From the NCBI GenBank assembly GCA_963971285.1, contig OZ020262.1, forward strand, positions 7,801,745 to 7,865,744: a stretch of 64,000 bases of DNA, in the 5' to 3' direction. The notes beneath the pieces were generated by a model. The model did no database searches. It saw only the letters and a program-made list of their open reading frames with translations, and was not told the origin of the DNA. The stretch comes from Astropecten irregularis (Eukaryota > Echinodermata > Asteroidea > Paxillosida > Astropectinidae). Position 1 is the first letter of the stretch. The number at the start of each line of letters is the position of its first letter. The position numbers and the translations under genes are program-made. This document shows positions 20,000-50,500 of this stretch, one piece after another.

Positions 20000-22900
20000 G
20001 TACATTCACAATGAGATTGTGTCAACTCTTCACTTATACCAGTTTAATTATTTCTTTTTTGTATCATCTAAAATGTTGAAGTTTCCACAAATCAATCAGG
20101 ACGGTTAAATGTATTATCATACTTTTGTAGCATACTGAAACAAAAAATCTTCACAGATTTACCTATTACTTACAGGGTATAAAGATGGCGATGGTCGAAA
20201 TATATCGTTTAAGTTTTGATCATCTTAAAAAGATTTAAAAAAAAATAATAGTGAAAAGATTGGAAATTCTAATTAGCATACAAACCAAACACCTATTGTT
20301 AACCCTGAAACAGTGTGAGGAAGTGGATAAAATCAGAGGCCCCATAAAACAGTTGCTTTATGGAACATGTTCAAGCCCTAATATTCCTATTGCAGAGACC
20401 ATTTAACCATATGTGTATTCCGTGTACTCACACCATTAGGTCTGAGCACAGCTGACTTGGATCACGACTGTTTACGGAGTTGCGAGTGGCCTCCACGCCC
20501 AAGAATCTGTCGCTATGAGTTCACGGTGGAGTGGTCGTACAGCATGTCCAAGGCCTGCTTTGATTGTCCCCTGAATCTGACTGATTGTTACCGGCCTCAC
20601 TGCTTTGCCATCGACGGTGCCTCCAGGGCTATAGCCGTAGTCAACAAACAGTTCCCGGGTCCACTCATCCAGGTGCATAAACGCAAAAATGGAGTGAAAT
20701 TTAATGATTATTCCCAAAGTTGGTGATTTTCAATAAATTCACCATTTTTGGCCGAGCATTACATATAGGTCTTACAGTGAGCACAATCAGCACACATACA
20801 CGGACTGACCGTCCAGTCTTCAGTGTGGTATGAAAAAAATAATAATTACTGAGTTTATTAGCGCCCTCTATACTTTACTGCAGCTGTACAACATCTGTTG
20901 AGCAAGGTGTCGTTCAGTATATATCGCCATTCAAACATGGAACTTTTGAGTATTCTTATGTTTTTTGGTGGGGATTGCTTCAATCTTTCAAAACAATAAA
21001 TAACTTTCAATGGAGGATCCGGCTAGGTCCCACTAGGTCTGGCTAGGTCCAGCTAGGTCCAGCTAGGTTCGGCTAGGTCCGGCTAGGTCCGACAGGATCC
21101 GACTTTTACCAAACTCACTATAGAAGTTCAATGTGGATGAGATCTACCAGCGTTCAAGGTCTTGAGTTTTAATTGATGTTAAATGGTAAACAAGCTGAAA
21201 TATTGCAGGAAGCTAAACAAAAAAAAAGCAAGATACTGACATAAAACATCTGAACAGAGACTATTTTGGACACCACCAACGTAGGCCTGTTAAACTCAGT
21301 TGGTAGAGCGCCTGTACGGTGTTCAGGTCGCTAGCTCGAGTTGCTAGCTCGAATCCCCCTCCACTCACATTTTTGAGTTGTTTATGCACAAAGTTACACA
21401 GTATATTATATTGTTTTTCTGTTTAAAGGTATGCGAGCATGATACTGTCATAGTAAAGGTCAACAACCTGATGATCAATGCCGAGGCGTTAAGTATCCAT
21501 TGGCATGGCTTGCACCAACGAGGGACTCCTTATATGGACGGCACGTCTCTAGTCACACAGTGCCCTATCCCTTACGGTTCCAGCTTCACCTATGAGTTCG
21601 ACGCACAAACTCCAGGCACCCATTGGTGGCACTCCCATTCTGGCATGCAACGATCAGACGGAATCTTCGGCCCGTTTATTGTCAAGCAGGCCTCCCCAGA
21701 CGATCTTCACAGTGGCCGGTATGACCACGACCTACCTGAACATGTGATTATTGTCCAGGACTGGATAGACGAACTTACCCTGAATCGCTACACCGGTCAC
21801 CACCTTGCATCCTCACCAGGTACACCCGATTCGGTCCTCATCAACGGCAGGGGCAGGAAGGTCGAATTCGTCAATCCAGGAACCAATAATCAGACTGTGA
21901 AGACACCATGGGCCAGCTTCAACGTGCAGAAGGGCAAACGATACCGCTTCCGCACCATCAGCAACGCTATTCTCGACTGTGCCATCGAGATATCTGTTGA
22001 CAACCATAATCTGACAGTTATCGCCAGTGATGGATCTCCCTTTGAACCTGTCGTCGTGAGTCGCTACGTCATCTACGGTGGGGAGAGGTTTGACTTTGTG
22101 CTGGACGCCAACCAACCAATAGGAACGTACTGGATGAGAGTAAAAGCTGTGGGCTATTGTACGAGTGCTAGGGTCCAAGCACTGGCCACTTTGGTGTATT
22201 ATGGTGCTGATGGCGATCCTTCAGCACCAGAAGACGCCGCACCTAACCAGGGAGGAACTATTCTCAACCCTGTCAACCAACTTCCATCTGACACAGTCAT
22301 AAACATCAACCAGCTAGTTGCTCTTGGTAGGTCCAAGCTCTTTACATAGACCGATGTTCATGACTGATAATTGTGTGTCCCCGACAAAAACAATGCCATA
22401 CATATTGCAAGGCATCAACTCTTTCAGATATTAAAATGCATATCATTTTGGAGAAAACATATCGAAAGCGACATTTTTGTATAATTATACTACGCGGAGA
22501 TGACTACTTTAATCCAATATGCTCTGAAATGATGCCGGCATTTGGTATAATTAACCGCATTTTACTTTATCTTTCTTATTTTTACGAGCAGAAGCAGAGG
22601 AGCCATTAACCGAAGTACACAAGACCGTCTACCTCGGAATGGACTTCGAAAACGTCACAAATCCTTTGTACAATCATCCTGAGTATTACCCCAGTCATAG
22701 GAGAATCTGGACATCGCAGATAAACCACGTGTCTTTCAAACATACAGCTGTGCCTCCTCTTACCCAATACAGTGATATTTCAGAGTTTGAGATGTGTAGT
22801 GTAGAATCTACGGAAGCCATGAGAGACCACTGCAAGCAGGAATATTGCGAATGCACGCACGTCATTGAAATTGAATTTGGGAAAGTAATTGCAAAATGAA

Positions 22901-25473
22901 TGTCCGTTATGTGATCTCATACATTTTATTAGAAAGTTGAAAGGCTGTGCTAAATAGATTCAAGCCTCCACACTAAGAAAACTTGACAAATGTTTAAGAG
23001 GACCGAAGCACTGGAAGGCATGGTAAAATGAATATCAAATTGGTAATAGGAATTGAAGCAAAACTGAATTAAGTGCCCTCTCGTGTCGATTAAAGTAGTC
23101 CCAACAACGTTGAGACCTAATTGCGAGAAGTGCCAACGATATAGAAGTGCGAAAGTACGAACGATTATTACATGGTGTTTCCAAACCGATCCACATACTA
23201 ATTGTCACCATGCAAAGCCTTGAATCTTTCTAGTCCCAACATGTTTGGTTTCTAAATTCGCAGATTAGCTAATATCGTATATAGGCCTATACACAATTCA
23301 TTTGGATGATTTATGCAAAATTGCTGACAAGTTACGGTATTCAGGAGGTCACTGGTTCGAATCCCGCTCCAGTCAATTTTTCTTTCTTTTTTGTTGTTCA
23401 CTTTACAATGAAGTCAAGTTTGTCTTTGTTTATTTATATCTTTTTTATGTGGTTTCAGACGCTTGAGATGGTATTGGTAGATGAGGGTAAAACTTTTGAG
23501 GGCACGCACCCAATGCATCTCCACGGTTACCACTTTCAAGTAGTAGCCATGGGTAAATTGGGGCTAGCTACTACAGTGGAAGAAGTCAAGGAACTAGACA
23601 AAGCCGGTCAGTACTAGCCAATTAAAAACCTTCGTCAATTCAAATTAATTTTACAGAAATCAGAAGTCTACCTCTTGTTTTTGGACTTTAAAGGACACGG
23701 GGTTTCTTTATTTTCGTTATCCCTTATACTCTCTGTTTCGTACATTCGATACGATAAAGACTCTTTGTCTTAATCTTTTAAAGGCTGATTTTGATAGATT
23801 GAGGAGGGTTCAAGCCAGTATTTTCCAAGAAGAATGGGAATGCAAGTATTTGTTTGAATTTTTTCCATCCAATGAATGGTCGGGAATTCTTGCTTGTAAT
23901 GTTAACGTTGGAAATGTACAAGTTGTAAGACAAATTATCATTTTAATTCATGTTTGTCCTTATTGATTAACCCATATCCGCATACAACAACCCTAAGTAT
24001 TCTCCGGGCATTATTACCCAGCCTATAAAATTGTGACTCATTTTTATTAGCCCCAATGGGCTTCACATAGTCCGACAAGTTGTGACCACAGTTTGTTCAA
24101 AATGGTGAACAGATTCTTCAACATGGTAAATTTCCCGTTAAGTCCTCAAGAGAATTAAAAAAATAGAAAGGGATATTGCAAAGCAGTGCATCTTGAAAAA
24201 AAAATTCCACATGAAATAGCAGCATGGTTGGTTAGCGAGAAAATGTTTTATTATTCCCACTTTTTTAGATTCCCACAATTTTAGACCCCTACTTTATGTT
24301 GTATTTTGTTACTTTTTATTGACATCCGCACTAGTGAGCAGGAGGTCGTTGGTTTGAATCCTGCCTGAGCCCTCGCATTATTTTTCATGTGCACTCAACA
24401 AGCAGTCTTCATTCACGTCGGTGATGGGCGGGCCTAATTTGAATATTGTTATTGTTTTATCAGGAGGAATTGTGCGGAATTTAGAGAAGGCACCACGTAA
24501 AGACACCGTCATCGTACCGGATGGTGGCTACACTGTGGTGCGCTTCAAAGCAGATAATCCCGGCTGGTGGCTATTCCACTGCCATTTGCAGTTCCACAGC
24601 ATGGTAGGTCTATAGGCACTTTATTTTCAAGGATGGCTTTTTGTTGTGAATGGATTTGAATGAAAAAAATCCCAAAGTAAAGACCTTTATACAGGGATGT
24701 CACAAAAAGGTAACTAAAGGAACTGTTCTACAGTTAGACAGTTGATCGCTATATACAGTATACAAACTACATTATATCTCACGGGGTCGTTTGAGTGGTC
24801 GTTATGGACATGTGGCCGTTATACACAGGTGGTCGCCATTTACGTTGGTCATTCATGGTTCACCTTTACCGTCAAGAACGACATGTAACAATCCTCAGAT
24901 TTCAAATATTGAAACAAAATTAAACAGATTTAACTGATGCAATTCTGAATCCATCATGACTGCTTAAAAGCAAAACCTGACAGTGAATCCATGTTCCTGA
25001 ACTACTGGTAACTTTAGCCTTTGGGTTAAAATACTTAAATAGATTTATCATCTGTTTTCGTTTTAAAGGCATTTTAGCTGAGTTTTCTTTTTCAAACGAA
25101 GAACTCCTATGAAAAGAGCCACCTCTTTAAAGATGAAATACGCATATAGTGTACTGAAGCAACATGGACGCAATTACATTATTATGTCCAAATTTGTTGC
25201 CATTATGAGCTTATCTTGAAAAGATTCCTTTTCAGATTGTGTTACTTTTGTTTTATACAGATTGGGATGACTATATTGATACACGTTGGCACTGAACAAG
25301 ACCTGCCGCCCAAACCAAAAGACTTCCCTCGCTGCGGTAACTGGTACCCGCACGGAGTTGAAAGCACTTCGCCTACCCCTGCGCCCTCAAGAGCTGAAGG
25401 ACCTTTACGTCTTGCACCATCTGTAGTGATTTTGGGTTATTTGATCAGTCAGGCTTTGACATATTTCATGTAA
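19915..25473 (+). CDS. Laccase-like multicopper oxidase, copy A (7 exons)
   Basis: Coding exons are 19915-19999, 20440-20672, 21429-22326, 22592-22884, 23459-23606, 24464-24603 and 25261-25473. All have GT/AG borders and consistent phases, giving 669 residues. The order is: signal peptide (about 1-28), a cysteine-rich animal-laccase N-domain (about 39-86), then three cupredoxin domains. All four copper motifs are present: HWHG 130-133, HSH 174-176, HPMHLH 520-525 and HCHLQFH 591-597 with axial Met602. The C-terminus is hydrophobic (about 650-669), suggesting a GPI signal or membrane tail. Laccases oxidise phenols and catechols while reducing oxygen to water; this one should act outside the cell. 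Its substrate is unknown. A tandem paralogue follows at 32352-43481. No broken splice site or stop is seen. Confidence 0.9.
20104..20240. mobile_element. T1 MITE fragment in laccase A intron 1
   Basis: GTATTATCATACTTTTGTAG and TTACAGGGTATAAAGATGG match one half of T1. The other half is gone. Confidence 0.55.
20440..20672 (+). CDS. Laccase A exon 2: Cys-rich N-domain
   Basis: It carries eight closely spaced cysteines (CLRSC, RIC, KACFDC, TDC, HC), the pattern that precedes the first cupredoxin domain in animal laccases. The acceptor is CCATTAG and the donor follows ATCCAG. It is almost identical to copy B exon 2 over the same 233 nt. Confidence 0.88.
21005..21112. repeat. 10-bp minisatellite in laccase A intron 2
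   Basis: About nine degenerate copies of GGCTAGGTCC. Copy B has no equivalent in its intron 2. Confidence 0.8.
21283..21370 (+). repeat. tRNA-derived SINE piece in laccase A intron 2
   Basis: AACTCAGTTGGTAGAGCGCC (A-box-like) and CTCGAATCCCCCTCCA (B-box-like) frame a locally duplicated GCTAGCTCGA. It is not a plausible tRNA. Confidence 0.5.
21429..22326 (+). CDS. Laccase A exon 3: cupredoxin domains 1-2
   Basis: It holds the first two copper motifs ([20 protein letters not shown]) and the whole second cupredoxin domain. It is 898 nt and ends in phase 1, like copy B. The first 130 nt differ markedly from B; the rest is nearly identical. Confidence 0.92.
22592..22884 (+). CDS. Laccase A exon 4: start of cupredoxin domain 3
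   Basis: It contains the laccase-typical [16 protein letters not shown] segment that opens domain 3. It is one codon shorter than copy B (293 against 296 nt). The donor GTAATT follows GGGAAA, phase 0. Confidence 0.88.
23130..23255. repeat. Dispersed repeat (same family as 5303-5425)
   Basis: It shares AGAAGTGCGAAAGTACGAAC and TAATTGTCACCATGCAAAGC with the earlier copy. Confidence 0.5.
23320..23385 (+). repeat. tRNA-derived SINE fragment in laccase A intron 4
   Basis: TCAGGAGGTCACTGGTTCGA and ATCCCGCTCCAGTC match the 3' half of the tRNA-like head at 2693-2768. Confidence 0.5.
23459..23606 (+). CDS. Laccase A exon 5: HxxHxH copper motif
   Basis: It encodes [25 protein letters not shown] and a loop ending KELDKAG. 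Acceptor TTTCAG, donor GTCAGT, phase 1. An internal ATGG/GTAAAT site could act as an alternative phase-1 donor. In copy B this exon is interrupted by a transposon. Confidence 0.88.
24325..24440 (+). repeat. SINE fragment in laccase A intron 5
   Basis: GCACTAGTGAGCAGGAGGTC, a B-box-like GGTTTGAATCC and a tail with GTGCACTCAACAAGCAGTC parallel the copy at 25790-25950. Confidence 0.5.
24464..24603 (+). CDS. Laccase A exon 6: HCH copper motif
   Basis: It encodes [15 protein letters not shown] and [13 protein letters not shown]. The type 1/type 3 copper motif is split from its axial Met by the last intron. Phase 0 at the end. Confidence 0.9.
25261..25473 (+). CDS. Laccase A exon 7: axial Met and C-terminal tail
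   Basis: It starts [10 protein letters not shown] (the Met is the axial ligand position). A Pro/Ser-rich linker follows, then a terminal hydrophobic stretch with the stop at 25471-25473. An AATAAA lies near 26005. Confidence 0.9.
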   Translation: MGMTILIHVGTEQDLPPKPKDFPRCGNWYPHGVESTSPTPAPSRAEGPLRLAPSVVILGYLISQALTYFM

Positions 25474-32445: not shown

Positions 32446-35400
32446 GTGAGATTTAGCAAACTGTTCACATATGCATGTTTGATTCTTTTCTTTATGTTAT
32501 CAAAAACGTTGAAATTTCCAATAATCAATCACGACGTTTTTATTACCCATGTCTTTCTTCAAGCATGTCTTTCTCAATACCGTAATTCGTTCTTGAAGAA
32601 AGATTGAAAAGATTTTTTTCAAAGCTGGACTTATTTCATTACCATGTAATCCTAACTGCCAAAATGATGATATGCTATCAAACTGTGTCGATTATAGCAG
32701 ATTGCATGTATAGGTCTATTTGGTGGTTAATCTGTTTGTATTATAATTTACTTACACCATTAGGTCTAAGCAAAGCTGACTTGGATCACGACTGTTTACG
32801 GAGTTGCGAGTGGCCTCCACGCCCAAGAATCTGTCGCTATGAGTTCACGGTGGAGTGGTCGTACAGCATGTCCAAAGCCTGCTTTGATTGTCCCCTGAAT
32901 CTGACTGATTGTTACCGGCCTCACTGCTTTGCCATCGACGGTGCCTCCAGGGCTATAGCCGTAGTCAACAAACAGTTCCCGGGTCCACTCATCCAGGTCA
33001 GAAGAAAATGTATAAAGTAAAATTCTGTCGAAACGGTTGACAGTATCCTCAGCAGTCAGCATCGTTAAAGGTTTATTGTAATCAAATTTGGGATAGGGAT
33101 GAAAGTGCTTTAAAGTTACTGCTTAAAATATAATTAATGACAATATAAATTTATATTTGTATGTAAAGTGCTTAATTTTGACGAAAAAGTAACAAAATCC
33201 GTGCATTGTATGCCCCGCCCCTCAAAAAAGTCCCCCTTTGAACCGATTCACACAATAATTGCTTGTGACGTCACATACATAACTAGTATAGGCAGCACCA
33301 CTGTATACTCCGTGGCGTTCTGCATGTGACGTATGCAAGGTTTTTCGTCGCGAAATGTGGGGTTCGAATTCATGGGTCTTAAATACCTCCTTTTTCTCTA
33401 TACAATATCTTTTAGCACACACAATGATAGAAAGGTTGAGTTTTATAACAATACAGATGTATTTAACTTCAGATGTGTTTTGATTACAGTAAACCTTTAA
33501 CACGAGTAGCAACATTAAAGGAAAATGCTTGTGCTCCATTTACTGATTTTCAACAAATTCACACCGAAGTATAATCCACTGATATTTTAAGCCTTTGCCG
33601 TGCACACTGATGCTGTAAGTTACTAGCTATCAAGATGTTAATTGATAATAGCTATTGATAGGAAACAATCGCGCATTAATTATTGGAAGAGCACATAAAG
33701 AGCAAATACTGACAGAAAACATCTGACTTTTGCTTTGAGATTTAAATGGGCGTAGTTACATTGTATACTTTATTTCCTATTTCTGTTTTAAGGTATACAA
33801 GCATGATACTGTCGTTGTAAAGGTCAACAACATGTTGATAAACGCCGAAGAGTTAAGCATCCATTGGCACGGCTTGCACCAACGAGGAACACCTTACATG
33901 GACGGGACGTCTCTAGTAACTGAGTGCCCTATCCCTTACGGTTCCAGCTTCACCTATGAGTTCGACGCACAAACTCCAGGCACCCATTGGTGGCACTCCC
34001 ATTCTGGCATGCAACGATCAGACGGAATCTTCGGCCCGTTTATTGTCAAGCAAGCCTCCCCAGACGATCTCCACAGTGGCCGGTATGACCACGACCTACC
34101 CGAACATGTGATTATTGTCCAAGACTGGATAGACGAACTTACCCTGAATCGCTACACCGGTCACCACCTTGCATCCTCAGCAGATACACCCGATTCGGTC
34201 CTCATCAACGGCAGGGGCAGGAAGGTCGAATTCGTCCATCCAGGAACCAATAATCAGACTGTGAAGACACCATGGGCCATCTTCAACGTGCAGAAGGGCA
34301 AACGATATCGCTTCCGCACCATCAGCAACGCTATCCTCGACTGTGCCATCGAGATATCAGTTGACAACCATAATCTGACAGTTATCGCCAGTGATGGATC
34401 TCCCTTTGAACCTGTCGTCGTGAGTCGCTACGTCATCTACGGTGGGGAGAGGTTTGACTTTGTGCTGGATGCAAACCAACCAATAGGAACGTATTGGATG
34501 AGAGTAAAAGCTGTGGGTTATTGTACGAGTGCTAGGGTCCAAGCACTGGCCACTGTGGTGTATAATGGTGCTGATGGTGAGCCTTCAGCACCAGAAGACG
34601 CTCTACCTAACCAGGGAGGAACTATTCTCAACCCTGTCAACCAACTTCCATCTGACACAGTCATAAACGTCAACCAGCTTGTTGCCCTAAGTATGTAATC
34701 CGTTTTAAGCTCTGTTCATAGTCATGTTCATAATTGATATTTGTGTTATCCCTGACAAAAGCAACGTCATAATGCAAGGCATATACCAACTCTCACAGAT
34801 GAATGAACATAATTTTGGAAAAAAACTATATCGAAAGCGACAATTGTGTGTAAATATGCTTTGCGGAGGTGACTACTTTACTCCAACATTTGGACGAAGT
34901 TTGAAAAAAAAATGATCTGAGATAATGGTATCATTTGCTAGAATTAATCGCTTTTTACTTTATCTTCTTTATTTCTACGAGCAGAAGCAGAGGAGCCACT
35001 AACCGAAGTACACAAGACCGTCTACCTCGGAATGGACTTCGAAAACGTCACAAATCCTTTATACAACCACCCTGAGTTTTACCGCGATCAGACGAAGATC
35101 ATCATGACATCGCAGATAAACCACGTGTCTTTCAAACATACAGCCGTGCCTCCTCTTACCCAATACAGTGATATTTCGGAGTTTGAGATGTGTAGTGTAG
35201 AATCTACGGAAGCAATGCTAGACCACTGCAAGCAGGAATATTGCGAATGCACGCACGTCCTTGAAATCGAACTTGACAAGGTAATATCAAAATTCAAAAG
35301 TTTGTCCTGTGCTCTAATTAGAAAGTTGAAATACTGTACTTAATGGGTTCGAGCTTGCACACTAAGTAGATTTGATAAATGTTTGAGGACCGAAGCACTG

Positions 35401-38400
35401 GAAGGCATGGTAAAATTAAAGGTAGTTTCATACTATGGTTTTTATCAAAGAAATACAGATTTATGGGCAAAAATACCAAGACAGATACAGTAGCAGTCAT
35501 CTGTGAAAATTTCAGTCCCATGCATACGTTGCCAACTTTTTGAGAAAACAATGAAAACAGCCACAGTATTTCTTAAGTCTTTTCTCTTTTAGTTTTGATC
35601 TTTTAAAAGATCAAAAAGGTTTTCGGTCGTTGTTTGACTAATTTCTGGATAAATACACCATTTTAGGTTGACAAATTTTAACAGTATGTTTCTACCAGCA
35701 ACATCTTCATGCCCTGAAAGTTATAGGTAAATCTGTGAACATCTCTGTTTTTGGTTTCTTACCAAAGTATGATACTACCTTTAATGAATTGATAATAGGA
35801 ATTGAAGCAATGATTTAGTGCTCTCTCGTTTCCACCAATTAGTTCAAAAATGCTTGGTTATTCAATACCCTGATTTCCAAGTTTCGTCTCTGTTTATGTA
35901 TGTTTGTATTTGGTTTCAGACGCTTGAGATGGTATTGGTAGACGAGGGTAAGGATACTGAGGGCACACACCCAATGCATCTCCACGGTTACCACTTTCAA
36001 GTGGTAGCCATGGGTAAATGGGAGACTTTTGGAGAGGGCTGTCGATAGAGGGCAGCAAACTACCAGGTTCCTTAAAACTGTTTTTACACGCTGTAAGTAC
36101 GGCGGTTGTCCAAAAACTCTCCGAAAGACGCAGGAAAATACTGTGAACATTAAATTCAGGCCATTTACAATTAATTTGTATATTCACAACAGCCTCCCAC
36201 CAGGATTTCAATGCCCGAAAACACAAAGTTAGGTGAAATTCTGATGTTTTGCGAGGAATAATGTGAGAGGCTTCGTTTGCAAAGTAAAAACTCTGCGCAC
36301 AAAACTGAATGCTGTTTGCCGTGGGCCACCGTGATCATTTGAAATTCGCCCTTTTAGTGGCCAATCTCCACAAATTCTGCACTTGTTTGTTCTTGGGGAA
36401 CTTATGTCCTCCCCTGTCACCACACCCGCACACTGCATAGTATTTACCAGGCATTTTTATTGCGATTATTTACGCCTGTTGTGTTTACGATGAACATTCG
36501 TGCACAAAAGCAATGACAACAAAATCAAGACACTTTTCCCGAGCCTGGTGAAGCGCGCCCTCTTGTGATTAACGATTGTTAGTCAAAAGTCTCCCATTGG
36601 GGCTAGCTACTACAGTGGAAGAAGTCAAGGAACTAGACAAAGCCGGTCAGTACTAGCCATTTAAAGGTAATATCATACTTTGGTTTTTATCAAAGAAATA
36701 CAGATTCATGGGTAAGCTACCAAGACAGATACAGTAACACTCATCTGTGAAAATTGAGAAAACAGTGAAAAACAACCGCAGTATTTCTTAAGTCTTTTCT
36801 CTTTTATTTTTGAATTAAAAGATCAAAAAGAGTTTCGGTCGTTGTTTCACTAATTTCTGGATAAATACACCTTTTCAGGCGGAAACAATTTAACGGTATG
36901 TTTCTACCACCACCATCTTCATACTTTGTATTAAAGTTATACGTAAATCACGAACATTTCTGTTTTGGTTTCTTACCAAAGTAAGATACTACATTTAAAC
37001 ATCTTTGTCAAGTCAACATAATTTGTCAAAATTTGGTGCACCCATTGTCTTTTGGACTTCCAAGAAGATTGTGATCGCAAGGATTTCTTAAATGGGTTTT
37101 CCCTCCAACGATTGGTTGGCAAATTCTTGCTTTGAATTTCAATAATTAACATTATACCACCTGTGGGACAGAGTACTGCTGTTCACATCTCATCAAAGTT
37201 GAAGTTATTGTTTTGGGCCTATTGGCTGAATATTGCCCTGAATATTATCATGCTAATAAAATTAGTTAAATGTCAAATGTGACTCACTTTGTATTTTGAA
37301 TACCCCAGTAAGCTTCACATACCCTAGAAGTTTTTTTCTTCAAAATGGTGAATAGATTCCCTGAAAAGTTTTCATTTCCAAGACTGGTTCTTACATGCTA
37401 AAGCTCTTTCCTTCTTTGATCTCAATATAATACAAACTTGCCTAGACAAGGATATTTCAAAGCAGTGCATCTTGTGTAATAATGCAATAGCGCAATCATG
37501 TTTATATGACCAAAGTCGATCGACGGTTTGTTATTTGGAAAATGTATTGATGATTAAATAATCTTATTTTCTTAATAAACTTATCTTTATTTATTATTTT
37601 ATTGTTTAACAGGAGGAATTGTGCGTAATTTAGTGAAGGCGCCACGTAAAGACACAGTCATCGTACCGGATGGTGGCTACACTGTGGTGCGCTTCAAAGC
37701 AGATAATCCCGGCTGGTGGCTATTCCACTGCCATTTGCAGTTTCATACCACGGTAGGTCTAGGCACATTAATTTCATATTGATTGGCATATGGATGATTA
37801 TTAATTTGAATGAAAACTTAGCCCGAAATGTCAAAATTATAGACGTAATTAAACAGATAGTGAAAACATATCCGAGTTTTCCAATGTGATATTGGTGTAT
37901 AAGTTAAAGATAGTATCATACTTTGGTAAAAACCAAAACAGAAATGTTCACAGATTTACGTATAACTTACAGGGTATGAAGATGGCGGTGGTAGAAACAT
38001 ACCGTTAAAATGTTTCCGTCTGAAATGGTGTATTTATCCAGACATTGGTGAAGCCACGACCGAAAATCTTGTTGATCTTGTTTTCTGTTTTCACTGTTTT
38101 GTATTTTTGAATTAAAAATTCAAAAATACAAAACAGTGAAACAGAAAACAGTGAAAAACGGCCACAGTATATCTTGAGTCTTTTCTCTTTTATTTTTGAT
38201 CTTTTAAAAGATCAAAAAGATGTTCGGTCGTTGTTTGACTTATTTCTGGATAAATACACCATTTCAGGCGGAAAAATGTTAACGGTAGGTTTCTATTAGC
38301 ATTATCTTCATACCCTGTAAGTTATACGTATATCTGTGAACATTTCTGTTTTGGATTCTTACCAAAGTATGATACTACCCTTAAGGGATAAGAAATCCTG

Positions 38401-41400
38401 TAATATTTGGGGGTCTTATTAATATGTAAGTATACGAAAACTATTCAAATAGTCATTCACGACGAAGAATCGATATTTCTCTATCCGTTTTACTACGTCC
38501 TTATTAGACCTTTCCACGTGGATATCGGAAAAGGAAATATGACACATTTTCTCATGAAGATTTACATTGGTCTTTCGTGGTTCTCCATAGGCGATAGGAA
38601 CGATATATGTACGATATGTCGGAATAACCAAGCTAGAAGATACCCCCTCTCCGACCTTCCTCCCCCACCCCCGCGAAATATGGGACCTGTCTACGCCTCT
38701 GATATGGATTGGTGGGGCGGTTTTTCGGTATAACCGAATATAATAATGGAACTTTAAAACAACAAGCCGAAACCGAATCGAAGCTTTTTTTTTAATACCG
38801 TACCGATAAAGTCGGTTTAGAAAAAGAAAACCCCAGTAATAGGCACGTTCTCACACACCACAAAAGCGCGACTATTTGGGTCGTGATTTGCAGCGCGACC
38901 CAAATAGTCGCGATTATTTGTGTGGGGACACAAATAAGCCCGACTATTAGTGCGAATTGGAGCGCACTCCAAATCGCACTAATAGTGCGTCTTATATCAA
39001 ATAGTCGCGATTATTTGCTGTGTGAACGGTGCACCAACAAAAACCGGGTTTTTATATCCCCTCATGCGAGTCGGGCCCGCGAGTTTAGCACAGGAGGTGC
39101 ATTCCCACTAGAAAAAAATCGAAAAGTGGATCTCGATTCAAAAACCGATTTTTTTTTTCCGCGCGTCCAAAACTACGCATGCGTAAGTTGCGACCCTGCA
39201 TGACTGCAACCGGAACCAAATCATAATACGAGCCTGAAATTACGGTCGGACATAGTACATTTTCCGAGCACTTTATAAATGTGTGTACGTGAAATCGCCC
39301 CATAGTTCTTTGCGCACGGTAAAACTTCGGTCATTCAGCTCCGATCAAAGTCGATGCAAATCATGAGAAGTGGCTGTAGCTAGCTGCTACCACCATAGAC
39401 TTGTTTGTAATATCAAGCCGCAGCCAAGTATTTTAGACGCGGCCTTACAACTGTAAACAACTGCAGTATCAAGAATAAGACGTAGGGAGAATTTGATCAC
39501 GAAAGCACCCGCACACGCGGTACGCTACATATGCAATGGGATTTTTACGAAATTCTCAATACATGTGACAGAAAGCCACGTGGTCTGTATTTCTGCAGGT
39601 CCATTGAGTTCACGTGCGTGAAGTTTTCACTCTGTTTACACGTTCGGCGTGGGAGTTTATGCCTACATACACGAACGAAGTTTGTTGAAATTGTGTGCTT
39701 TTGGGGGAAACTTGTAGCAAGGTTGTTCTTCTAGTAATATCAATAACCATGAGTCGAGAAATCGCTTCATCCCATGTTATGAACATCGGGAGCAAAGCGA
39801 AGGAAAGTGTAGACCTAAACAGTGATCGACGGACACTGTGCAAAAGAATTCTTAGATTAATTTATTGATGCATCATAGATCCATACACTTACGGTAAGTA
39901 CCGTAAGTAACTTATGTAATTTTACACTGAACGTAACGTCAAATTTCAGGCTGTAATTCTTGTGTTATGCTTGTACAAAACACCGAACTTTCGCGCCGAA
40001 CCATGCACGATCGAGTCACTCATCAGGGAGGCCGGAAGTTTATCTGCGCACACTGCATTGTGGGATGTAACTTATTACCGATTTTCTCTTTTCGGTTGCG
40101 TCCACACACACAGCGCCCGTCAAATAATCGCGCTGTTTCCAAAAAATCGCAAGCAGAACTGGTATTTGGATCGCGATTCGAATCGCGGTTTTTAGTGAGC
40201 TTTTTGCGTCCACACACGCAATAAAAAGGATTTTTGAATCGCGATTCAAAAATCGAAAAGTGAATCGCGCTGCTTTGTTCAAGTGGGAACGCACCTAGGA
40301 TGCATGCCTACTTCACGCTTCACTGCGCACGGGCAGTTTGATGGAAATCGTACCGGTACAATTTGGGTCGCGCTTTTGGATGGCGACCTAAATAGTCGCG
40401 CTTTTTGGTGTTTTAAAACATGCCTATTGTATAAAGATTTTAAGAGCCCCACTTGTTATTTGGGGGGGGGGGGGGAACGGCCAGAGTGTAAACTAAAGTG
40501 GGGGATAGGATTTTAGAGATCCCTTTGTGTTTGAGTGATTTGCCGAAGAAATCTGAACACAGCTTAACAAAAGACCTGTCAATTACGTGTAGACACAGCT
40601 GGAGACATTTCATAAGTTGGAGACATAATACTTAATAGGGTGTGCGGGGTTAGATCGTGAATGAGAAAAAAGGTTGGTGACCCTTTCATAAAGCTTCGTC
40701 CAATAATAATGCTCGGCTGGCTCTCACGATCAATGTCACTGATGGTCACTGCATTTTGTGACAGCTGAACTTGCCGCTGGGAAGTTTGCACGTGGTCAAG
40801 CAAATCGCTGGTCCCATGTAATGGGTTGCCAATCTGTGTGGTATATTGTCGGGCACCAACCATGCAAGGAAGGCAACGTTAACATTATTTCGAGGTTGAT
40901 GAATATGTGCACTTTGTGCAGACTAGACGTAGATTTGGCAGACACTTGACTTCATCTTGGAGTCTTATTTCAATGGAGTATACCTGGCTCGAGAAGTAAA
41001 TAAATGCAAACGGAAGGTAGGAAAATTGTCCTCACGGCTCCGAAACTGTTTCTGAACGTTGATTATGATACAAGAAGAATAAACACCATCATCTGGGTAC
41101 GGCGTCGGGCGATAAATTAAAGCTATTCATGGATGAACGATGTTGTTTCAAAGCTATTGAATTAAATTTTTGCCAATGAAACAAAATCTTTTGTAAGATT
41201 CCTTAATCTTAAGATTGCCAAGGAAACTAGCGGCTAAACCACTCACCATGTATGACACACTATTAACATTCCTTTGGGTGTCCGATCAAAAGATAAGATG
41301 ACGTAATTTGTGCCTTTAGAAGTTGTCGGTAATACCCATAGAGATACATACTAATAAACTAGAGGGCGGACGCACAATACTCCCCTGTACTGTGGCGCTG

Positions 41401-43481
41401 TGATCGCATGGGCATGTGCCGCCATTACTATTAAAGGCACGAATTACGTATACGCATGCGTACCAGGGAATGATATGCTGACGGAGCACTTGCATAAATT
41501 AAAGTACAAAGGCCTACGCCGTACGTACACATCAAGGATAGTAAAGCGCCGGCACAGTGCCTTTTTCAGTAATGGTGGATCGATCCCCATGTTGTCACAG
41601 AAATTTCGCCGAGCCCGCCCTCTAGTTTATTAGTATGTATCTCTATAGTAATACCAAATACCGCGGCTTTTTCGTTTTTTTTGCCGGTATGGGGCCGTCC
41701 ATAAAGTACGTACGCACGAAATGCCGACTTGTTTGACCCCCATCCCCCCTCTGTACGCATGGCGTACGCAGTGGTCCCAACCCCCCTCCCCCCTGTACGC
41801 ATACGCATACCACATTAGGATTTTCACTTCTCGTGGTCCCTTGCTTTAGCATTATTAAAATGTCACCGTAATCCGGGCCGGTACCGTTATTGGGACGTCA
41901 CTTTCAAATTCTGAAAATTGGAAACCGCCCAACCCACGGTCTTTAGCTTAAAACAGATTTAAGTGATACAACTAGACTGCTTAAAAACAATCTTAACAAA
42001 TCTTAAAAACGATATGAATGGCCTGCATATGTGTATAAACATTGTTACCATTATCGTTTGTTTTCGTTATGATGTCGTGTCAACTTATTTTGTTTTTCAA
42101 ACTTTATTACTTCTTAAAAGTTGAAACATGGACAATGGGAGACTTTTGACTAACCATTGTTAATCTGAAGAGGGCGCGCTTTATCAGTCCCGGGAAAGTG
42201 TATTGATTTTGTTGTCATTGCTTGTGTGCACTAATATTCGTCATAAACACAACCGGCTTAAAATAAGTTCATACAAATGCCTGGTACATACTGTGCAGTG
42301 CTCGGTTGCGGGCCAGGGGAGGACATGGGTTCACCAAGAACAAACAAATGCAGAATCTTTTGAGATTGGCCATCAAAAGGGCGAGTTACAAACGATCATG
42401 GTGGCCCACGGCAAATAGCGTATTGCTTTGTGCACAAAGTTTTAACTTTGGCAAGCGAGACCTAGCACATTATTCCTCGCCAAACATAAGAATTTCACCT
42501 CACTTTGTATTTTCAGGAATTATAATTGGGGTGGGCAATGTGAAGGTAAAGGTTAATTGTAAATGTCATGAATTTAATGTTCACAGCATTTTTCTGCGTC
42601 TTTTGGAGAGTACAACAGTTTTCAGGAGACTGATTGTTTGCTGCCCTCTATCGACAGCCCGCTCCAAAAGTCTGTCATTTGGGGGTGCAGACCAGTAAAT
42701 AGGCCCAAATCGGTCCGCGGAGCTCATTAATTGTCTGTATACCCTCAAAATCTTTTCTCTTAAACCTGGTCTACGTGGGAAGGCTTGTAGACAAAATGGA
42801 TGGAACCCGATCACCAGAGTTTGGACTTTCACCTTTGAGCCGTTTGGATAAAATCAGGCCCGAAATTCGCTCTATTTTTGCCCTGTAGTGGAGGGGTACT
42901 ATTTGGTCTGGCACCGGTCAATTCGGCCGTTTTAGGGGTATTTTTCTTTGAAGGTACTTTTCGGCAAAAAGTCATTGGTTTACCTATAAAGAGAAAATGA
43001 AAATGGCAGTTTTCACCAGTTTATTTTGCCGTATTTGTCGATTGCCTCAAAAACTTCTGAGTATTTAAAAAAAAAAAAAAATTATTGGCCATTTTGCGTG
43101 GGAGCCTATGGGAATCAATTTACTGGTCTGCACCCTTGGTGACATTATCTATATTACCTGGTCAGAAGTCTCATGTTTTAAATATTATTAGCTAATTTGG
43201 AAAAAAGTCTTGTAATAATTCTTTCTTTTTTTCAAATTGTGTCCCATGTGCTATTGTGTTTTATACAGATTGGGATGTCCATATTGATACACGTTGGCAC
43301 TGAACAAGACCTGCCGCCCAAACCAAAAGACTTCCCTCGCTGCGGTAACTGGTACCCGCACGGAGTTGTCAGCACTACGCCTACCCCTGCGCCCTCAAGA
43401 GCCGAGGGACCTTTACGTCTCGCACCACCTGTAATGATTTTGGGCTATTTGATCAGTTATGCTTTGACATATTTCATGTAA
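32352..43481 (+). CDS. Laccase-like multicopper oxidase, copy B (7 exons; exon 5 interrupted)
   Basis: Exons are 32352-32445, 32764-32996, 33793-34690, 34985-35280, 35920-36645 (with a 576-bp transposon at 36020-36595), 37613-37752 and 43269-43481. Without the transposon they give 673 residues collinear with copy A: signal peptide, Cys-rich domain, three cupredoxin domains and hydrophobic C-terminus. All copper ligands are kept, including HCHLQFH and the axial Met. Reading straight into the transposon meets a stop 27 bases inside it. A phase-1 donor (ATGG/GTAAAT at 36010-36019) just upstream could splice to exon 6 and drop 16 loop residues while keeping frame. The coding exons otherwise look intact. 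Intron 6 is 5.5 kb of nested transposons. It is therefore either a young pseudogene or a gene with a shortened exon 5. Confidence 0.82.
32764..32996 (+). CDS. Laccase B exon 2: Cys-rich N-domain
   Basis: It has the same length and cysteine pattern as copy A exon 2. Only a few bases differ, while the flanking introns are clearly diverged. Confidence 0.88.
33065..33500. mobile_element. TTAA-flanked MITE, family T2, in laccase B intron 2
   Basis: TTAAAGGTTTATTGTAATCA and TGATTACAGTAAACCTTTAA form inverted ends on TTAA sites. The body differs from T1. Copy A lacks it. Confidence 0.75.
33793..34690 (+). CDS. Laccase B exon 3: cupredoxin domains 1-2
   Basis: It encodes [27 protein letters not shown] and the second domain. 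898 nt, phase 1, as in copy A. Confidence 0.92.
34985..35280 (+). CDS. Laccase B exon 4: start of cupredoxin domain 3
   Basis: It contains [16 protein letters not shown]. One codon is gained relative to A at [11 protein letters not shown]. The donor GTAATA follows GACAAG. Confidence 0.88.
35416..35784. mobile_element. TTAA-flanked MITE, family T1, in laccase B intron 4
   Basis: Complete T1 copy, TTAAAGGTAGTTTCATACTA to CCAAAGTATGATACTACC with TTAA. It is not in the matching intron of copy A. Confidence 0.85.
35920..36019 (+). CDS. Laccase B exon 5, left part
   Basis: It encodes LEMVLVDEG and [17 protein letters not shown], then runs into the transposon. The copper ligands of the HxxHxH motif lie before the break. 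ATGG/GTAAAT at its end is a plausible phase-1 donor. Confidence 0.8.
36020..36595. mobile_element. DNA transposon (GGGAGACTTTT family) inside laccase B exon 5
   Basis: The 576-bp element starts GGGAGACTTTTGGAGAG and ends AAAAGTCTCCC. Copy A supplies the empty site (GGGTAAATTGGGGC), showing that exactly AT was duplicated (36018-36019, 36596-36597). AT target duplications are typical of the ISL2EU (IS4EU) superfamily; the family call is inference. No transposase is encoded. A reverse-oriented relative is at 42137-42676. Confidence 0.88.
36596..36645 (+). CDS. Laccase B exon 5, right part
   Basis: The remainder of the exon after the element ([17 protein letters not shown]) is identical to copy A, followed by the same GTCAGTACTAG donor. 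Confidence 0.75.
36661..36998. mobile_element. TTAA-flanked MITE, family T1, in laccase B intron 5
   Basis: Inserted 15 bp after the exon 5 donor. Copy A has the unoccupied AATTAA at this place. Confidence 0.85.
37613..37752 (+). CDS. Laccase B exon 6: HCH copper motif
   Basis: It encodes [15 protein letters not shown] and [13 protein letters not shown], 140 nt, with the same phases as A. Confidence 0.9.
37904..38384. mobile_element. Composite T1 MITE in laccase B intron 6
   Basis: TTAA-bounded, but longer (481 bp). It is made of two T1 halves facing each other around a 47-bp palindrome (38092-38138: CACTGTTTTGTATTTTTG and its complement). Confidence 0.8.
38840..40426. mobile_element. Transposon F nested in E
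   Basis: The inverted ends read TAGGCACGTTCT and CACAAAAGCGCGACTATTT on the left, with matching complements near 40385-40426. The E copy at 43745 shows the joined site (CCCCAGTATTGTATAAAG), supporting a TA target duplication. Confidence 0.65.
39095..40296. mobile_element. Inner inverted-repeat element of F
   Basis: Inverted ends AGGTGCATTCCCACT and AGTGGGAACGCACCT lie around repeated TCGCGATTCAAAAATCG strings. A 39-codon frame at 39749-39868 ([12 protein letters not shown]...) resembles coding but matches no known family. It may be part of F rather than a separate element. Confidence 0.5.
41337..41647. mobile_element. hAT-like MITE nested in E
   Basis: The inverted ends CATAGAGATACATACTAATA and its complement extend through AACTAGAGGGCGG. 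An 8-bp duplication GTAATACC (41329-41336, 41648-41655) is proved by the single GTAATACC in the minus-strand E copy near 58452. Eight-bp duplications are typical of hAT elements. Confidence 0.85.
42137..42676. mobile_element. GGGAGACTTTT-family element in laccase B intron 6
   Basis: 540 bp, in reverse orientation to 36020-36595 and similar along its length. Flanked by AT (42135-42136, 42677-42678). Confidence 0.8.
42683..43135. mobile_element. MITE with GGGTGCAGACCAGTAAAT ends
   Basis: 18-bp inverted ends (GGGTGCAGACCAGTAAAT and its complement near 43117-43135). It adjoins the preceding element and lies just before laccase B exon 7. Confidence 0.75.
43269..43481 (+). CDS. Laccase B exon 7: axial Met and C-terminal tail
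   Basis: It starts [10 protein letters not shown] and ends with a hydrophobic stretch before TAA at 43479-43481. 213 nt, as in A. Confidence 0.9.
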   Translation: MGMSILIHVGTEQDLPPKPKDFPRCGNWYPHGVVSTTPTPAPSRAEGPLRLAPPVMILGYLISYALTYFM

Positions 43482-46811: not shown

Positions 46812-46954
46812 GGTATAATACATAGATGAAGAGACGTCTGCCCCGTCACACATTCCCCTCGGGGAAAACCCTGGCGGGGTCCGAAGGTGATGTAGCCACT
46901 TATGAATATTCATGATCCCTCCAACAACCTCCAGGTACGCAATACAATGAACAT

Positions 46955-47275
46955 TCTTTACTGACCAGTGCGATACCAGTTTGCTGTATCTGGCCGTAAT
47001 AATCTTTACTGACCAGTGCGATACCAGTTTGCTGTATCTGGCCGTAATAATCTTTACTGACCAGTGCGATACCAGTTTGCTGTATCTGGCCGTAATAATC
47101 TTTACTGACCAGTGCGATACCAGTTTGCTGTATCTGGCCGTAATAATCTTTACTGACCAGTGCGATACCAGTTTGCTGTATCTGGCCGTAATAATCTTTA
47201 CTGACCAGTGCGGTACCAGTTTGCTGTATCTGGCCGTAATAATCTTTATTGACCTGTGCGATACCAGTTTCCAGT
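46955..47275. repeat. 48-bp minisatellite ending at the P450 start codon
   Basis: Six complete copies (46955, 47003, 47051, 47099, 47147 and 47195) and one partial copy from 47243 start TCTTTACTGACCAGTGCGAT. The copies are nearly identical. The period is divisible by three, so both strands stay open by chance. The partial copy ends about 10 bp before the P450 ATG at 47276. Confidence 0.95.
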
Positions 47276-47556
47276 ATGGCACTCACCAGTAAAGTCGTGG
47301 CTTTCCTGACGGAGGTAGACTCCATTCTATCCTTTGTTCTGGTTGCATTTGTAGCTTTCCTCATAACGGCACTGATTTACCGACAGCACGCCTACTGGAG
47401 GAAATACTCATGGCCTCCTGGTCCCAAGGGTTGGCCAGTTATTGGCAACAGTCTGCTTGTCGGGGCTTTAAATGGGCCTGGAGAAGTTGCCAAAATCACC
47501 CGTATAGGAAGGCAGTGCCACCCCGATGTTTTCACGCTAACGCTGCATTTTGGAAA
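47276..47556 (+). CDS. P450 exon 1: membrane anchor and proline hinge
   Basis: It encodes MALTSKVVAFL, a hydrophobic anchor, YWRKYSWPPGPKG and LTLHFGK. It ends in phase 2 at the donor GTAAGT. Confidence 0.88.
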
Positions 47557-50500
47557 GTAAGTGTAATATAAGGGCCGGGTTTTAATGCTGCATTCACTAC
47601 ACTGAGGAAAGATCGAGACATCGAGTTTATACTTATTAGGCCTAACCCGTACGTCGTGCAATTCCCGATTTTATGTACACTTACATCATCTAGTTGTGGT
47701 AATATCATTCGACTAAAAAAAACCCGCGTGAACATCCGGAAGTGCTAGGATTTGTGCAGTTATTTAAATCAAGATCAATGGACGTATACCACGTACGTGT
47801 AACATAATGTGCCACTTAAAACAATACCTTGAATTCGGAACTACCACGGGAAAAGATTCTGATAGCATACAACTTAGGCTCCGTTTCGTAACATGACGAC
47901 GGCTCCAATTGGTAGAAAACTATTTTAATCGGAAAAATTACAATAATTACGGTGCAAATATGTCTTTAAAAGGTAGCTGATACCTTTAGGGAGATATCGA
48001 AAGGTCCCGATGTCTCCCAATGTCCACTTTTAGATGAACGTGTCGCCCTAATACCAAATTTGTAATTATGGCCTAAAGTGTGATGGATGCAAAGGAAATT
48101 TCCTCATTTTTAGGCTATGCCAACCAAAAACAAAACCCACAGAACAAATGATATTTACTCAAAATAAGCAATCTACTAAAACGTTTTCAAATACCGACTT
48201 CCCATTTTCTTCCACAGACGCGTGATAGTCCTGAACAGCTTTAAAGCTATGAAGGAGGCATTCGTTCAACAGTCATCAGTCATCTCAAATCGTCCTCCTT
48301 ATTGGGCTTTTAGATATGCCAACAAGAGCAAGACGAATGTTGGTGAGTAAACATATATAAATATATTACGTTCCATTTGACTCGTTACGTAACATGAGGG
48401 TTATAGATACCAGACATCGTTATCACGTACTGACCAAATATAAATCCATGAAAATAGGACACCTATTTAGGACATTAGTTGACATTTTGGGGTATCTATT
48501 TGTTAGGAAGGCTCATGAACAGATTAATGTCATCCTCTTTTAGGTTGTTTTCGTCCTACGTGGGAATTCGCACCTGTTTCTCTGTAAAGTGCTCTTGCAA
48601 GCAATAGAACAGTTTGACATTTTGGTAATTTTTGGAAGCTTTATCGGCGCAGGGCTTCTTTCAGTCACAAAACATCTTTTGAAGCTTCAAATGCCATGTT
48701 ATTATTTTGGGTAAAAGCAGGTTCAGTAATGTTCGACGTTTTCGTTTATTCTGCTGAATGGGAGTTTTCCATGTTTTCTTCTTCAGTGTTTTTTCATAGG
48801 TCAAACTAAATCTACCTTCCCCATGTTTGCATGTTACATTTACAGGCTTATTCTTTGAGTCCTTCACCAATTCTTGGAAGAGGGAGAAGAAATACATGAT
48901 GCGGACTGTACGGCATTTTGGCTACGGGACCCAGGCATCCCAACCTCTCATTCTTCGTGAAGCAAATCACTTGGCAGACCTGATCCAGAAGAGAGGGGGT
49001 GAACCTTTCGACCTCTCCCGACCCCTTAGCCTTTGTATGATGAATGTTACCTTCTCAATGATTTTCAGTACCACCTATGAGGAAGATGACAAACAATTCG
49101 CCAGTCTCTTAATAGGCATCATGAATTGGTTTATGAGTTTCGTCAAGAACTATGACTACGAACCATTCCTACCAGTCGTTGATAAGCTTGGCCTCAGTCC
49201 TCGTCTTAGAAATGGTCAGAGAATAACTAAAGAGTTATTGGGATTTATCAGAAAGCATATAGATGAACACATGGCCACCCTGGATCCCAGTAATCCACGA
49301 GATATGACGGATGAGTGCCTGATTGAGATGGCTACAAAGGATCCCCAGAGCGACCTCAGACCTGGGGAATTCGATGATGAGAATCTGCAGTGGATGCTGC
49401 TCTTCTTCATTGTTGATCAGGGAGACACATCCGTCGGGGTCTTCCTCTTTCTGATGCTTGTTTCCGCTTCGCATCCTGAGGTTCAGGAGCGTGTCTTTCA
49501 CGAGATCCAGGAGGTCATCGGAGACCGGCCACCTTCACTGGACGATAAGGCCAGGATGCCATTCACAGAGGCCGTCATTCTGGAGACACTTCGAATGGAC
49601 ACGCCCTTCTGGTTTTGGATACCACACTTCACCGCAGTGGACGTGGATTTGCTTGGTTACAAGATCCCAAAAGGAACATCAGTCGTGCCCAACCTTGCTG
49701 CAGTTCACTTTGATCCAGATTTATGGGGAGATCCGGAAAACTTCAGACCTGGGAGGTTCATAGACGAACACGGTGTCGTGAATAAACCTGACTATCTCAT
49801 CCCGTTCTCAATCGGTTTGTAAAAAGCTTTAACTATTATTTTGTTTGTTTGGGGGTTTGTTGTCTTGCTTGTTTTGTGTTGTTATTGTCGTTGTTTTTTT
49901 TTTTTTTGGGGGGGGGGGGGAGGGGGTGGGGGTTGATAGGGTTGATTAAAGGTAGTATCATACTTCGGTAAGAAACCGAAACAGAAATGTTCACAGATAT
50001 TACGAGTAACTTTCAGGGTATGAAGATGGTGGTGGTAGAAACCTACCGTTAAAATTGTTCCGCCTGAAATGGTGTATTTATCCAGAAATTAGTAAAACAA
50101 CGACCGAAAATGTTTTTGATCTTTTAAAAGATCAGAAATAAAAGAGAAAAGACTTCAGAAATGCTATGGCTGTTTTTCACTGTTTTCTCAAAAAGTAGGC
50201 ACCTTATTGGACTGAATTTTTCACAGATGACTGTGATGGTATCTTCCTTGATATTTTGGCCCATGAATCTGTATTTCTTTGATAAAAACCAAAGTATGAT
50301 ACTACCATTAAAGGGAGTATATAGGATTTGCAAGGCCTAAAAACATTTTTTGAGTTTGAGACAGAAAATGGACTCAACAGTTCGTAAACAGTGCAAACAG
50401 TCACCATGGGAAATCTTGGTTCATCAGATGCTGGGTTTTTCAAGGAAATCGAGATTTAGTGTCTTTTCCAAAGATCGTTCGTCTGAACGATTTTTGGAAC

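Follow-up and report, generated by a model that had tools for sequence, protein, structure and literature searches.

Does a gene whose coding exon has been split by a transposon lose its function, or can splicing carry the transcript past the insertion? This question is raised by the second of two tandem laccase genes, here called A and B, in a 64,000-nucleotide stretch of DNA from the sea star Astropecten irregularis (the window), which is part of contig C27 in a searched genome of 475.7 Mb and 168 contigs. The gene models cover exons 2-7 and place A at 20440-25473 and B at 32764-43481. Both genes are three-domain multicopper oxidases of the laccase kind: copy A, taken over part of exons 3-7, matches the Pfam families Cu-oxidase_3 (111.7 bits), Cu-oxidase (107 bits) and Cu-oxidase_2 (120 bits), and A and B have multicopper oxidase domains and copper motifs in common with the PDB laccases 8r7i, 1hfu, 1a65 and 9gly. 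On the forward strand, B consists of exon 2 (32764..32996), which lies in a block 98.4% identical to copy A, exon 3 (33793..34690), exon 4 (34985..35280), the interrupted exon 5 (35920..36645), exon 6 with the HCHLQFH copper motif (37613..37752) and exon 7 with the stop codon (43269..43481). Exon 6 starts at 24464 in A and at 37613 in B, and needs phase 1 in both. A genome search with the laccase exons gave 16 matches among 18 candidates, all of which were scored; beyond A and B, they fall in four C27 genes near 12.11-12.14 Mb and two C10 genes near 25.7 Mb, and the B locus is a single one in this search. A literature search combining laccase and echinoderm returned no relevant title.

What has interrupted exon 5 of B? 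Compared with exon 5 of A (23459..23606 on the forward strand), it carries 578 extra bases, made up of a 576-bp element (36020..36595, no strand given) and a second AT, so that coding sequence is left at 35920-36019 and 36598-36645. The AT target duplication occupies 36018..36019 on the left and 36596..36597 on the right (forward strand), and A has the empty site; the comparison thus bears out the original prediction of a 576-bp insertion with an AT duplication. The element ends in 12-bp perfect terminal inverted repeats (TIRs), GGGAGACTTTTG, and is of the non-autonomous ISL2EU type. Han and colleagues place the ISL2EU group among the PHIS (PIF/Harbinger-ISL2EU-Spy) DNA transposons and characterise it by AT duplications within A|AT|T targets, by TIRs of 6-259 bp that mostly begin with GG, by a THAP domain in the transposase ORF and, in autonomous elements, by a DDE transposase plus a YqaJ ORF (PMC4482050). 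The element in B resembles the group so described in its AT duplication, its A|AT|T target and its GG-starting TIRs, but it is only 576 bp long and non-autonomous, with neither a transposase nor a YqaJ gene; a THAP-like remnant on its minus strand hints at the group too, but weakly. The preference for the target is seen throughout, since AAT precedes and ATT follows the element in 30 of 30 retrieved copies, that of B included (30 loci retrieved, of 40 scored among 725 first-look candidates). The minus-strand remnant, read with X at a stop, matches PF05485 with an E-value of 0.0086 and 17.3 bits, where the Pfam cut-off would require 23.9, and its first 39 residues alone match THAP with an E-value of 0.11.

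The ends of the element belong to a large family, as genome-wide counts of the 11-bp end GGGAGACTTTT come to 3589 in forward and 3662 in reverse orientation, against 329 and 387 for a reversed control. YqaJ matches genome-wide (35 of 39 candidates scored) were counted irrespective of GGGAGACTTTTG ends. Several other repeats were noticed. Intron 6 of B contains, at 42137-42673, an older relative of the exon element that is 78% identical to it, lies in the opposite orientation and gave no THAP match in Pfam. At 1958-2090 the window holds a near-perfect palindrome of 133 bp that likewise has GGGAGACTTTT ends and an AT duplication, and short pairs like it recur several times in the first 100 genome positions listed (e.g., C1:73751-73888). 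The copy at locus L037 also splits an open frame, in this case one that carries a reverse transcriptase domain; when ten junction frames were scanned, one from each of 10 of the 30 loci with B included, Pfam recognised the laccase of B and one reverse transcriptase frame. A different repeat, of about 360 bp, is found in introns 4, 5 and 6 of B (35414-35785, 36661-36997 and 37903-38384) and has no match within introns 4-6 of A. It has 10728 first-look candidates genome-wide, of which 40 were scored, and it swamped a flank search for a second haplotype of B, which gave one full-length match among the 40 scored of those 10728 candidates.

When did the element arrive? The copy in B differs from its own subfamily (14 copies including itself) by seven substitutions, four of which are common only to one other copy among the 30 (L010) and three of which are private within the subfamily; one of the private changes (column 160) is also present in some copies of the other subfamily. 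With 99% identity to the nearest of the 40 scored copies and only three private substitutions in 576 bp, this copy is young. The synonymous distance between A and B is 0.142 (NG86) or 0.124 (YN00), so that, with so few private changes, the insertion is much younger than the gene duplication. The identity between A and B is uneven, reaching 98.4% around exon 2, and therefore gene conversion may blur this distance.

Was B a working gene when it was hit? Without the element its frame is open over 641 amino acids (exons 2-7), and HWHG, HSH, HPMHLH and HCHLQFH are all present. The nonsynonymous distance between A and B is 0.033-0.034 against the synonymous distance of 0.124-0.142, which argues that B was constrained before the insertion, and this low ratio together with the intact copper motifs means that B had been functional until recently. 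The comparison with the sister genes gives a slightly different shade. Among 41 differences between A and B, only A matches a C27 sister at 12 and only B at 6 (four sisters compared), an excess that is too small to show relaxed constraint in B. At four sites B departs from the residue common to A and the four C27 sisters, and no site is of the reverse type; constraint on B may thus have been weaker already before the hit, as far as such small numbers of residues can indicate. At 33793-33810 the Cys-Glu of the VCEHD motif, found in A and in the four C27 sisters alike, corresponds to Tyr-Lys in B, the cysteine being one of the four departures. The open frame of B was also considered as proof of function after the insertion, and was rejected: at a private divergence of about 0.5%, only about 0.25 neutral changes are expected in the 48 loop nucleotides behind the element, so the open frame has no power in this respect. 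Judged from these changes, the insertion is too young for its sequence to tell whether B still works.

What would become of the transcripts? Reading through the element adds nine element-coded residues and ends at a TAG codon (36046..36048, forward strand), the early stop that the original prediction had described. The stop is at residue 518, after 517 of the 641 amino acids encoded by exons 2-7, and the product is without the HCHLQFH motif. The insertion, its target duplication, the stop, the youth of the element and the open frame of B without it can be read from the DNA itself, and from them we infer what is said here of B transcripts. In the reading that we consider probable, a non-autonomous ISL2EU-group transposon has recently inserted itself at an AATT target within exon 5 of laccase B; most transcripts of B would stop before the HCH copper motif, leading to decay or to an inactive truncated protein, or be mis-spliced; and the allele, perhaps segregating, would mainly be one of loss of function, cushioned by copy A. 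As a minor possibility, some transcript may use a weak donor just upstream of the element and yield a laccase 18 residues shorter. The stop at residue 518 and the weakness of that donor support an allele mainly of loss of function, as do the youth of the element, the four departures found only in B and the finding of one B locus. Against it stand the low ratio of nonsynonymous to synonymous distance, the intact copper motifs and the shortened domain 3, which keeps the copper motifs and the Pfam score.

How good is the donor upstream of the element? The original prediction had drawn attention to ATGG|GTAAAT, six bases before the insertion and in phase 1 as exon 6 needs, and both this site (GTAAAT at 36014..36019 on the forward strand, last exon base 36013) and its counterpart in copy A (last exon base 23552) are where they were expected. 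Two of its details need correction. Splicing from 36013 to 37613 would drop 54 nt of exon, hence 18 residues and not 16, shortening the product from 641 to 623 amino acids over exons 2-7. Nor is the donor a good one: scored with approximate metazoan base frequencies rather than with a model trained on this genome, it reaches 0.88, whereas the ancestral donor of exon 5, GTCAGT, which is intact at 36646..36651 (forward strand), scores 2.39. Twenty-five laccase donors served as a reference, nine of them from A and B (whose exon 5 donor, being identical, counts as one) and 16 from four sister genes, leaving out the exon 3 donors of the sister genes and all C10 donors; their mean is 3.48, and 1/25 scores as low as 0.88. 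For the 16 sister-gene donors, the best-scoring GT no more than 7 nt from a match end was chosen (one lies 6 nt off), and they are therefore biased upward. Among the real donors of A and B the lowest scores are 0.69, 1.05 and 1.36, so that 0.88 is weak yet within the range of use. GTAAAT itself is the donor hexamer at four of the 16 sites from sister genes, two similar genes, P27a and P27b, accounting for all four, and thus the weakness of the donor after 36013 lies in its exon half (TGG).

Phase-1 donors of such strength lie no more than 12 nt upstream of 3.4% of the B coding positions and 2.0% of those of A, but the aligned 1920-nt coding sequence of B offers only four AATT targets, one of which is the insertion site, so that the nearness of the donor to the element is a modest coincidence. 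A conserved alternative splice site was considered and rejected, since GTAAAT is present at this place only in A and B and is absent from 6/8 laccase genes, P27b having a different in-phase GT. That GT, in exon 5 of P27b (L056), is a donor-like GTGGGA scoring 2.12, one codon upstream of the GTAAAT place.

The loop that the bypass would remove gives evidence in both directions. It is kept in 8/8 laccase genes, reading KLGxxT(T/S)VE in A, in B and in the C27 sisters and having the slightly shorter form ATVESVRELD in the two C10 genes, so that, by its gene sequences, the laccase family of this animal shows no sign of an optional loop. Behind the element, A and B agree in all 48 nucleotides of the loop, which has a probability of 0.07 at the average divergence of the coding sequence. 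On the other hand, the residues removed coincide with a 17-residue gap in the PDB laccases 9gly, 1hfu and 1a65, whereas 8r7i is aligned through the loop. Of the 54 PDB sequences common to both search listings, many of them near-duplicates, 45 score higher with the shortened domain than with the full one (1hfu, 59.0 vs 45.1 bits; 9gly, 56.4 vs 42.3 bits), the 54 being those of 58 full-form matches that occur among the best 60 of 113 short-form matches. The full form is preferred in the other nine, which include the closest, 8r7i (130.6 vs 119.7 bits), and 1gw0 (65.6 vs 54.1 bits). The Cu-oxidase_2 score in Pfam is 115 bits for the full domain and 116.8 bits for the shortened one, and a folded shortened product is plausible on these alignments.

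Taken with the rest, these observations make exon shortening from 36013 to 37613, with a loop-less laccase of 623 residues (exons 2-7) as its product, an unlikely outcome, though one with several points in its favour: the junction is in phase, the hexamer is a real donor in P27a and P27b, the removed residues fall in the gap of 9gly, 1hfu and 1a65, the acceptor of exon 6 (6.14) is far above the AGs at the 3′ end of the element, and an exon of 726 nt is unfavourable for exon definition. It is disfavoured by the absence of GTAAAT from 6/8 genes, the presence of the loop in all eight, the identity of the loop nucleotides in A and B and the preference of 8r7i and 1gw0 for the full form, as well as by the better donors around it, namely the normal donor, four GTs inside the element (36092, 36232, 36262 and 36547, scoring 1.46 to 3.19) and an upstream site that also shows the bypass donor not to be the sole in-phase cryptic one. 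The idea of a ready bypass thus holds insofar as an in-phase donor exists, and fails insofar as this donor is weak, is present in 2/8 genes and would remove a loop that all eight keep. The more specific proposal, in which a pre-existing weak donor 6 nt upstream has been recruited so that one splice change removes both the transposon and an 18-residue loop and leaves a short-loop laccase of the 1hfu type, seems to us quite doubtful on the same sequences. The upstream rival is AGG|GTAAGG (35948..35953, forward strand, last exon base 35947), 66 nt before the bypass donor, likewise in phase 1 and, at 4.94, the highest-scoring GT in exon 5 of B. If it took over, the product would be in frame without the HPMHLH copper ligands, and its Cu-oxidase_2 score would drop from 115 to 74 bits; however, it is a coding site that was presumably unused before the insertion, and score alone is no predictor of use, since another coding GT in B scores 5.07, so we hold this takeover to be very improbable. 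Its counterpart in A is GTAAAA (0.72).

Could the element be removed more precisely? Joined to an AG near its 3′ end, the donor after 36013 would turn the element into a new intron. Three of the four AGs tested are in frame (36589 is not): that at 36581..36582, which would give a 569-nt intron and add three residues, and those in the exon at 36605..36606 and 36614..36615, which would remove five and eight (all on the forward strand). The Cu-oxidase_2 score of the element-intron form is 111.6 bits, and a private change to T at 36576, in the tract before the AG at 36582, lifts the score of this acceptor from -7.3 to -5.3, which is suggestive only. Nevertheless, the acceptors, at -5.3, -2.7 and -3.3, are very poor beside the nine real ones scored, which range from 2.9 to 6.6; the two better AGs deeper in the element (1.63 and 1.44) are upstream of most of it; and the donor is the same weak one. 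Introners derived from DNA transposons are known and speak for such an intron (PMC9860276). They resemble the present case as non-autonomous TIR elements in exons with splice sites that may come partly from the host, but the element in B has no acceptor of normal strength at its 3′ end, and we rate its use as an intron as highly unlikely. Exon 5 skipping was considered as a rescue and discarded on exon lengths: it would join the phase-0 end of exon 4 to exon 6, which needs phase 1, and would cost the copper ligands. With a DNA transposon in a gene and cryptic sites nearby, laccase B resembles the case of Tc1 in Caenorhabditis elegans, which, as Rushforth and Anderson reportedly found in 1996, is removed from pre-mRNA by splicing at cryptic sites near the insertion; there removal was seen in RNA, whereas laccase B is known here from sequence. 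SOS splicing, a process reported from cells of nematodes and humans, removes elements under the guidance of RNA structure; a literature search for it found no matching paper. A similar excision, in which the inverted ends pair in RNA and the element leaves without normal splice sites, would agree with the end-to-end folding of the element RNA, which has a 13-bp terminal helix in both minimum-energy and centroid structures (z -2.9). Such pairing is, however, expected of any TIR element, and nothing in the present data points to such a pathway in echinoderms; this outcome is hardly to be expected.

We therefore return to a recent, perhaps segregating and mainly loss-of-function insertion as the probable state of laccase B, with bypass splicing as a minor possibility. 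The observation of the insertion itself is sound with the corrections given above, and the bypass is a possible mechanism. The pair of laccase A and B is a clean natural experiment, since it combines a gene pair, an exact empty site, a young insertion and mutually exclusive splice outcomes. If the bypass is used, a duplicate would have survived an exonic transposon and gained a loop-deleted enzyme; if not, this would be an ordinary loss-of-function insertion.

Elsewhere in the window, open frames at 47243-49822 resemble cytochrome P450 by eye and adjoin a tandemly repeated frame at about 46900-47290. COX1 on contig C168 reads TGA as a sense codon and has four AAA codons, three at places usually taken by Asn, in agreement with the echinoderm code, which flatworms have as well. 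Two further COX1 matches were seen in the genome: one within C25 (G000:C25:9951047-9952018) contains TGA codons and possibly represents mitochondrial DNA in the nucleus, and the other (G000:C131:32162-33484) is free of stops and possibly lies on a bacterial contig.
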